Positions 31,902 through 33,219 of a DNA stretch of 64,000 bases are shown in pieces. Origin of the DNA: an uncultured Elusimicrobiales bacterium. Its GTDB lineage: Bacteria > Elusimicrobiota > Elusimicrobia > Elusimicrobiales > Elusimicrobiaceae. Position numbers and translations under genes: made by a program. Position 1 is the first letter of the stretch. The number at the start of each line of letters is the position of its first letter. Location of the stretch: the NCBI GenBank assembly GCA_944324645.1, contig CALUXB010000001.1:1-64000 (forward strand), in the 5' to 3' direction. Below the pieces are notes generated by a model, which was given only the letters and a program-made list of their open reading frames with translations, was not told where the DNA came from and made no database searches.

Positions 31902-31929
31902 AGTATAAGCTGGAAACGAAAAAAAACAA
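31902..31929 (-). promoter_or_regulatory. hpf: Probable promoter of the hpf-PTS operon
   Basis: On the minus strand TTGTTT (31929-31924), 16-nt spacer and TATACT (31907-31902). The start would be near 31895, giving hpf a leader of about 170 nt with several GC-rich hairpins, including a perfect 8-bp stem at 31875-31893 close to the start and ACGGG/CCCGT at 31740-31752 just before the ribosome site. Confidence 0.5.
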
Positions 31930-31953: not shown

Positions 31954-32250
31954 ACATAAGGAGAATGATTTTGTAAGGCCCTAATCCGGCTTTTATTTTA
32001 ATCTGTTTTTGGAATCCTGTGGAAACAGGATGAGCTGTAGCTTTAGGCTGCGGCACTATTCACTCCAAAAACAGTCGTTTTAGGTGTTATGCATACGGCC
32101 TAATTACCCGTATGTATAAGACCGAGAGCTGTTTGTCATCCTCAGATGACAGACAGCCGCGGCTGTTTGTCTTTGGGTGAGTGAATAGGCTCAGGACTTA
32201 CAGCCGTTTTTGTTTCCTCCGGGAATCCGCAAACCAAGGAGGAAACAATG
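31954..32250 (+). promoter_or_regulatory. Structured leader RNA with pseudoknot and RBS-hiding hairpin
   Basis: Pairings that can be read directly: P1 32003-32012/32065-32074 (10 bp, perfect) closes a junction with P2 32014-32020/32025-32031 (7 bp, GGAA loop) and P3 32034-32041/32047-32054 (8 bp). Junction strand 32056-32064 pairs with 32180-32188, a pseudoknot. P5 is 32087-32098/32108-32119 (12 bp). P6 32128-32140/32145-32157 (13 bp) competes with 32148-32157/32162-32171. P7 32210-32220/32238-32248 (11 bp, perfect) covers GGAGG and the A of the ATG. Every non-Watson-Crick pair is G-U in the plus-strand RNA, so the plus strand is the likely transcript. Behaves like a translational switch; no known riboswitch class recognised. 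Confidence 0.6.
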
Positions 32251-33219
32251 ACCCCTGAAATATCTGTTTTAATCCCCGTTTATAATGCGGAGAAATACCT
32301 GCCCCAGTGCTTGCGTTCTTTGCAGGAGCAGACTTTTTCTGATTTTGAAATCATCTGCATAGATGACGGTTCCACAGACAAATCCCGTCAAATTATTCAA
32401 AACGCCGCCCTGGCGGACCCGCGCATTTGTCTTATCTGCCAGACTAATCAAGGGGTCGCTTTCACCCGCAACCGGCTTATAAAGCAGGCCCGGGGAACGT
32501 ACATAGCTTTTGTGGATGCCGATGATTTTGTGTTGCCGGAATATTTAGAAAAACTTTATAAAACAGCCAAAGAAAGTGCGGCAGAGATAGTGAAGTGTTT
32601 CTTTTACGAAACGGAAGAAGATGGCTCCTTGCGTTCAAAGGCACACTGTACAAAGGGGTTTTACCGGGTGCCTGCAAAAAAAGATGCGTCGCGCTTTCGG
32701 GCAGGCTACGAAGATTCTGTCTTGTGGGGGAAACTTTTTCAACGTCTGTGGCTGGAAAAAAATCAATTTGAATTTTGGCCGGGCCGTGTGGCGGAAGATT
32801 TCCCCTTTGTTGTGCTTACCTTTCTGTTTGCCGATAAAATTGCAGTAGTTGCGGAAAGATTATATTGTTACCGAAAAGGGCTTAGTCAGGCAATTACCAG
32901 CGGTTCTTGGAATTTGACAGTAGGGGTTTTGCTCAATCTTTTGTCGTTGCGGGAGGATTTGCTTTGCAGAAACCGCTGGAACAGACAAACCGCTTCGGAG
33001 TGGCTGCGCGCTGCCGTGTGGAGCTATTGCCGCTTGCGCAAATTTTCTATACAGCAGCGTCAGCAACAGCAGGAGTTGACGCGCCGCGTGTGGCAGCAGA
33101 TGAAGCAAACAGTAAGATATTGTTCTTTTTTGCCTCAGCTGCGCTGGCGGTTGTTTTTTCTCTTAGTTTCTGTATGCGGCCCAAAGAGCCGTTTCTTCTG
33201 GGGAAAAATTTTCAGATAA
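32248..33219 (+). CDS. Family 2 glycosyltransferase
   Basis: The 323-residue protein has a GT-A fold start (EISVLIPVYNAEKYLPQCLRSL), the nucleotide-binding IDDGSTDKS motif near residue 33, GVAFTRNRLIKQARGTYIAFVDADD with the metal-binding DxD near 90, and a variable C-terminal half with basic and aromatic residues. GT2 enzymes of this kind transfer sugars to LPS, capsule or exopolysaccharide. It is a single gene with no neighbouring polysaccharide cluster, and is unusual in having a long structured leader with a hidden ribosome site. Confidence 0.9.
   Translation: MTPEISVLIPVYNAEKYLPQCLRSLQEQTFSDFEIICIDDGSTDKSRQIIQNAALADPRICLICQTNQGVAFTRNRLIKQARGTYIAFVDADDFVLPEYLEKLYKTAKESAAEIVKCFFYETEEDGSLRSKAHCTKGFYRVPAKKDASRFRAGYEDSVLWGKLFQRLWLEKNQFEFWPGRVAEDFPFVVLTFLFADKIAVVAERLYCYRKGLSQAITSGSWNLTVGVLLNLLSLREDLLCRNRWNRQTASEWLRAAVWSYCRLRKFSIQQRQQQQELTRRVWQQMKQTVRYCSFLPQLRWRLFFLLVSVCGPKSRFFWGKIFR

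Follow-up and report, generated by a model that had tools for sequence, protein, structure and literature searches.

A previously undescribed class of structured leader RNA upstream of glycosyltransferase and type IV pilin genes in gut and rumen Elusimicrobiota

The leader RNA and its family

The window, that is, the whole stretch of 64,000 nucleotides analysed here from an uncultured Elusimicrobiales bacterium (contig CALUXB010000001.1, positions 1 to 64,000), carries a GT2 glycosyltransferase gene that adjoins a divergent hibernation-factor gene, a neighbourhood also found in several relatives. Upstream of the GT2 gene, positions 32003-32211 (+) are one copy of a structured leader-RNA family, of which more than 250 copies were read (Table 1). 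This family is a new class of cis-acting leader, previously undescribed, of gut and rumen Elusimicrobiota. The original prediction of a new pseudoknotted cis-regulatory leader on the plus strand is borne out. Helix P1, its two inner hairpins, the pseudoknot 32056-32064/32180-32188, a hairpin around 32087-32119, the hairpin 32128-32157 and a perfect 11-bp helix covering GGAGG next to the ATG are all present. A terminator-like hairpin (32160-32206) followed by TTTTT, and an alternative pairing between 32070-32077 and 32160-32167, had been missed. Folding of the plus strand gave −130.2 kcal/mol with z = −9.35 versus dinucleotide shuffles, as against z = −4.86 for the minus strand, in agreement with the plus strand being the RNA strand.

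Table 1. Features of the leader copy in the window and its surroundings
Feature	Coordinates	Strand	Remarks
Candidate −10 box TATAAG	31904..31909	+	Inferred for this copy; TATAAT at the same position in L005/L006
Small 5' hairpin AAGGCC...GGCTTT	31975..31993	+	In many copies, not all
P1 5' strand CTGTTTTTGG	32003..32012	+	99% of cells paired, 225 copies
P2 hairpin	32014..32031	+	Both sides changed in 6 of 6 pairs
P3 hairpin	32034..32054	+	Folding and covariation analysis
Pseudoknot strand PK5 CTATTCACT	32056..32064	+	Copy-specific
P1 3' strand CCAAAAACAG	32065..32074	+	Alignment; P1 pairing
AACAGTCG, common to P1 and antiterminator	32070..32077	+	Pairs with 32160-32167
P4 hairpin, 16 bp	32083..32123	+	Both sides changed in 16 of 16 pairs
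TAATTA palindromic hexamer in P4 apical loop, putative kissing loop	32101..32106	+	
P5 hairpin	32128..32157	+	Both sides changed in 11 of 11 pairs
P6/P7 terminal hairpin CGGCTGTT...ACAGCCG, PK3 in loop	32160..32206	+	Alignment and covariation
Pseudoknot strand PK3 AGTGAATAG	32180..32188	+	Own-versus-swapped pairing test
T-run TTTTT, completing intrinsic-terminator-like end	32207..32211	+	At least 5 T in the 8 nt after the terminal stem in 249 of 254 copies
Anti-Shine-Dalgarno strand	32210..32220	+	Pairs with 32238-32248; local to window locus
Shine-Dalgarno strand of 11-bp helix	32238..32248	+	Pairs with 32210-32220; local to window locus
GT2 glycosyltransferase, gene proposed to be regulated here	32248..33219	+	PF00535, E = 1.1e-37

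A blastn search against relatives returned dispersed multi-copy homologues, not one orthologue, and the element was found before orthologues and paralogues alike. A covariance model (R1, 208 positions) built from 19 aligned homologues detected the RNA at E ≤ 0.001 in 97 of 394 genomes of the phylum Elusimicrobiota, with E-values of 1e-12 to 1e-61 in most of the positive genomes. These comprise nearly all species of the window's genus, a sister genus and another family of the phylum; the hosts are Elusimicrobiaceae and Endomicrobiaceae (Ruminimicrobiellum, Praeruminimicrobium), mostly from rumen and gut. The leaders are about 205 nt long and number 0 to 128 per genome: one in the window's own genome, 0 to 8 in many others, 17 in G048, about 19 in G044, 48 in G040, 50 in G075 and 128 in G060, a genome of 1.7 Mb. 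Closely spaced or tandem copies occur at L012 (two, 1.4 kb apart), L063/L078 (two, about 0.2 kb apart) and L134. A short subfamily without hairpin P4, found with a second model (R2), is present in other genera and families (L062, L064, L065, L066, L076, L077, L098 and L296); L296 is the single copy in a single-contig genome (G066, genus g2) and has a GC-rich terminator.

In an Rfam cmscan of the window and 20 diverse members, only tRNAs reached the gathering score, in keeping with the original statement that no known riboswitch class was recognised. A known Rfam family is ruled out; the sub-threshold matches were to viral or microRNA models (IBV D-RNA, BTE) and unconvincing, and the models of raiA, OLE, GOLLD and ROOL had no match in the same sequences. 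The raiA RNA had come into consideration through the adjacent hpf/raiA-type gene and was rejected: Rfam gave no match, the strand is the opposite one and most copies lie away from hpf. In other phyla, three exact-pattern matches (Muribaculaceae, Clostridia and Algoriphagus) failed the R1 model and are attributed to chance, and collections of phages, plasmids and viruses held no match at the sensitivity used. A literature search on Elusimicrobia riboswitches, structured RNA and pilin RNA gave no description of the family, which may nevertheless figure in a large table of candidate RNAs (e.g. PMC8040213).

Structure and exchange of strands

The original prediction had named covariation among related leaders as a check, and the signal is strong. 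Among 98 distinct sequences, 95.4% of cells are paired versus 76.3% after shuffling, both sides have changed in 60 of 63 pairs, and covariation scores 0.546 versus at most 0.092 with slid partners; the alignment was fitted to R1, which biases it towards the structure, but the margin is nonetheless very wide. The pseudoknot is absent from R1, so that pairing of each copy's own strands, compared with strands swapped between copies, provides an independent test, and one used in place of per-column pair counts because covariance-model alignments do not register the pseudoknot inserts. PK5 and PK3 form on average 9.9 contiguous bp within a copy versus 5.2 bp when swapped, and the 225 distinct helices are nearly unique to each copy. 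Among 96 copies taken from one genome, 95 pseudoknot strands differ, and their mean identity of 0.32 is close to the random expectation of 0.26, while identities are 0.85 for P1, 0.99 for P6 and 0.52-0.56 for the P4 arms. Near-random between copies in which P1 and P6 are conserved, the pseudoknot behaves like a private barcode.

The position of the RNA relative to genes is equally regular. The RNA and the next gene share a strand in 236 of 242 cases, and the gap between them, mostly 30-60 nt, has a median of 41 nt; the upstream gene, by contrast, has a mixed orientation (132/111). Fixed orientation and short distance, taken together with the covariation, identify the family as a cis-regulatory leader RNA. 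An extended −10 element (TG.TATAAT-like) occurs within −62 to −8 of P1 in 65% of the G060 copies and in 24% of those from other genomes, versus 2% in the control region in both cases. At the 3' end, hairpin and T-run have the form of an intrinsic terminator, as expected of an attenuator, and are predicted to terminate transcription. With the −10 element upstream and a same-strand gene beyond the T-run, each copy looks like a promoter, a leader, a terminator and a gene.

Inspection of the two ends of the leader reveals that P1 (CTGTTTTTGG/CCAAAAACAG, then TCGTTTT) and the terminal hairpin (CGGCTGTT.../...AACAGCCG, then TTTTT) are near-copies of each other, so that their strands can be exchanged. 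Specifically, AACAGTCG, which consists of the P1 3' strand and the three bases following it, has CGGCTGTT as an alternative partner. In this alternative helix 96.3% of cells are paired over 225 copies, a value that falls to 19-43% when the partner is slid by one or two positions. Mean duplex energies are −10.7 kcal/mol for P1, −13.7 kcal/mol for the alternative helix and −22.5 kcal/mol for the terminal hairpin. The P4-less subfamily keeps the core switch: both of its strands differ (AATAATCG with CGATTATT), and RNAalifold picked the alternative pairing unprompted. As the exchanging strands are nearly invariant, few double changes back the alternative helix, namely seven cells at one position in addition to the P4-less class.

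Folding of transcripts cut just after PK3 predicted the alternative form in 199 of 222 members, with a mean P(P1) of 0.01, a comparison of nested folds only, since RNAfold cannot score the pseudoknot. At full length, the predicted probabilities are 0.90 for P1, 0.89 for the terminator and 0.06 for the alternative helix, and the antiterminator form costs about 8 kcal/mol more, even with the pseudoknot left uncounted. The leaders have a conserved putative antiterminator, mutually exclusive with the terminator as in attenuators, that is predicted to form before it. The PK5-PK3 helix is compatible with both states and could act as a toehold.

Two further pairings of the original prediction stand in part. 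Of two hairpins proposed to exclude each other, 32128-32157 is the family's P5 while 32148-32171 is specific to the window copy. The complementarity between 32021-32027 and 32211-32217 exists in the sequence, but its P2 loop, GGAAAC, is confined to the nearest orthologues.

Palindromic P4 loops and downstream genes

Of 244 apical loops of P4, 233 contain a palindrome spanning 4 nt or more, and 166 have a perfect hexamer. Ten such hexamers were found (TAATTA, TTATAA, TCATGA, TTCGAA, TTGCAA, CTCGAG, CTATAG, TAGCTA, CTGCAG and TCTAGA); other loops carry GATC, AGCT, GGCC, TGCA, GTAC or GCGC, and three carry GACG. When each distinct loop is counted once, 29 of 59 have a hexamer versus a mean of 3.1 in shuffled loops (maximum 9 in 500 shuffles), and 50 of 59 have a palindrome of at least 4 nt versus 21.7. 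The loops of P2, P3 and P5 hold palindromes at chance level against their shuffles, which is the fair comparison given that these loops are shorter. Neighbouring bases of a loop cannot pair within the same chain, so that the swapping of one palindrome for another points to pairing between molecules. The same reasoning was applied to the OLE and GOLLD homo-oligomers, and OLE switches between GGCC, GAUC and AGCU (PMC12286853). An apical loop that stays self-complementary under sequence change is what a homodimeric kissing loop calls for, and we regard the P4 dimer as putative on this ground. Since the palindrome accounts for almost every loop type, an anticodon-like reading of the 7-nt P4 loops was given up. 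Not every member can depend on dimerisation, as the subfamily described above does without P4.

Across the family, the next genes are mostly type IV pilins, and a role specific to glycosylation, as originally proposed, therefore does not hold. In G060, the next gene is a type IV pilin by motif in 87 of 91 cases; three of the other four have a pilin motif bearing a variant residue and one is a GT2 gene. The remaining next genes encode GT2 and GT8 glycosyltransferases, polysaccharide pyruvyl transferase, lipoproteins, outer-membrane barrels, a Chlamydia-type PMP repeat protein, DNA methylases (including an EcoRI-type enzyme) and a SNF2/ResIII helicase. The RNA is not required for pilins in general, since pilin genes are abundant with or without it: the window's genome has 104 pilin genes and one RNA, G028 has 58 and none, and G060 has at least 150 and 128.

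The N-terminal motif of type IV pilins was found in 58 to more than 150 genes each in the window's own genome (G000), G028, G060 and G075, which measure 1.4-1.7 Mb. Of 18 pilin genes inspected in the own genome, at least 8 (L310, L313-L316, L320, L324 and L327) share an upstream promoter in which about 12 consecutive T separate a TTGACT-like −35 from a TAAAT/ATACAT-like −10 element; these promoters are candidates for phase variation by slippage. In different genera (L026, L046 and L296), the gene that follows the RNA encodes a related zinc-ribbon protein (MALIKC.EC.KE.SD...CP.C), a conserved pairing of RNA and gene.

Proposed mechanism and comparison with known systems

The structure, the covariation, the terminator-like end, the conserved alternative pairing, the palindromes and the gene association, all read from sequence, are best explained by a terminator/antiterminator strand-exchange switch with homotypic loop-loop contact, serving mainly type IV pilin and other variable surface genes. 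We put the probability of this reading at about 0.6. The cis leader of about 205 nt would control transcription of the next gene as follows. During transcription, P1 would first close a three-way junction with P2, P3 and PK5. As soon as PK3 and the terminal hairpin's 5' strand have emerged, PK3 would pair with PK5 and the terminal 5' strand could take over the P1 3' strand, yielding a nested form with P1 opened, the antiterminator (ON). If, on the other hand, the last strand, AACAGCCG, pairs back, P1 would reform and the PK5-PK3 helix would become a pseudoknot, upon which terminal hairpin and T-run would halt transcription (OFF). Actual termination, this order of events, dimerisation in the cell and the effect of dimerisation belong to the model.

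As to what tips the choice between ON and OFF, we infer preferentially a contact between leaders of the same loop type. Hairpin P4 lies between the exchanging strands and its apical loop is self-complementary, so that leaders of one type should kiss each other, either as nascent RNA or as released, terminated RNA of about 205 nt. Such homotypic contact would bias the ON/OFF choice and thereby couple the expression of surface genes, mainly type IV pilins. More tentatively, and with the odds somewhat against it, the family might constitute a genome-wide RNA self-recognition code, in which scores of pilin mRNAs carry bistable leaders, each marked by a private pseudoknot barcode of 10 bp and by one of 15 or more palindromic kissing-loop types, and leaders or terminated fragments sense each other to coordinate or exclude surface-gene expression without a protein regulator.

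Alternatively, the P1 junction and pseudoknot could be an aptamer, with a metabolite or second messenger picking terminator or antiterminator and the kissing loop as a mere scaffold. A three-way junction with a pseudoknot would suit an aptamer, and the terminator platform, the many copies and the gene set (pili, glycosyltransferases and secreted proteins) recall c-di-GMP riboswitch regulons. However, no Rfam class matches; few unpaired bases are conserved beyond J14 and the junction, conservation falling mainly on the exchanging strands; from copy to copy the sequences of pseudoknot and P3 vary almost at random; and 128 copies in one genome with one or none in a near relative would be unusual for a metabolite regulon. 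We consider a riboswitch unlikely.

The conserved length of P4 (41 nt) and the conserved sequences of J14 and J45 would also fit an RNA-binding protein or NusG-like factor that recognises P4/P5 and causes read-through by attenuation or processive antitermination. The surface-gene targets resemble genes under antitermination, as known from EAR/LoaP-type elements. Against this, no protein gene was seen travelling with the RNA, and a protein that reads sequence does not explain a P4 loop that varies by type yet stays palindromic. A dependence on such a protein seems less probable still.

A translational switch, in which a metabolite, a protein or temperature hides or frees the ribosome site, was the mechanism favoured by the original prediction. 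At the window locus the perfect 11-bp helix over the Shine-Dalgarno sequence speaks for it, and a close relative (L005) keeps this helix through a compensated G-C to A-T change. Over 200 copies, however, the longest Watson-Crick stem that the terminator-to-start gap can form with the Shine-Dalgarno region has a mean of 4.49 bp versus 4.18 bp after shuffling, and a stem of at least 8 bp occurs in only 8 of them; the feature common to the family is the terminator. Masking of the Shine-Dalgarno sequence is real in the window copy and its nearest relatives (the hpf/GT locus) but is not a property of the family at large. At the window locus it may contribute translational control; as the mechanism of the family it is improbable. 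Finally, a repeat or mobile element landing before genes, or a stand-alone small RNA with an incidental neighbour, would account for the dispersed, high and very uneven copy numbers between related genomes, but we give it hardly any weight in view of the near-constant strand and distance of the next gene, its narrow functional range, the covariation by which divergent copies keep their structure, and the lack of copies in phage, plasmid and viral collections at the sensitivity used.

If the strand-exchange reading is true, the leaders form a new class of RNA for bacterial gene control, very large and found in a gut phylum that has been little studied, and may show how Elusimicrobiota choose which surface proteins to make. 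The reading offers a concrete way to test how a cell that has more than 100 pilin genes selects those it expresses, and whether mRNA leaders can control each other through self-recognition; both the strand-exchange design and the varied palindromes are testable with short synthetic RNAs. We know of no earlier cis-regulatory leaders with strong sequence evidence for homotypic RNA-RNA contact.

Like attenuators and transcriptional riboswitches, the family places a leader between promoter and gene, with a terminator-like end and an exclusive antiterminator that shares a strand with it. Unlike in those systems, the switch strand is common to the closing helix of a three-way junction, the pseudoknot helix is present in both states, no known aptamer is found and one to 128 divergent copies occur per genome. 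The c-di-GMP riboswitches (GEMM) likewise control pilus and surface genes with several copies per genome, but the leader family has no sequence or structure match in Rfam. In the guanidine-II riboswitch (mini-ykkC), also a bacterial mRNA leader, loop-loop kissing is part of the proposed mechanism; there it joins two hairpins of one RNA and depends on guanidinium, and fold and size differ from those of the Elusimicrobiota leader. OLE, GOLLD and ROOL are structured bacterial RNAs with a symmetric kissing loop whose palindrome changes yet stays palindromic, as in L9.3 of OLE, but they are long (ROOL 659 nt), form RNA-only multimers whose function is unknown and are not gene leaders (PMC12286853), whereas the Elusimicrobiota leader is about 205 nt long and cis-linked, and a single genome holds many of its loop types. 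Retroviral dimer initiation sites (HIV-1 DIS; GACG in MoMuLV) share the six-nucleotide palindrome in an apical loop, and the GACG of three leader copies equals the MoMuLV-type minimal kissing loop (PMC7357161); here, in contrast, the loops sit in bacterial mRNA leaders rather than genomes, and the role proposed for them is the control of genes.
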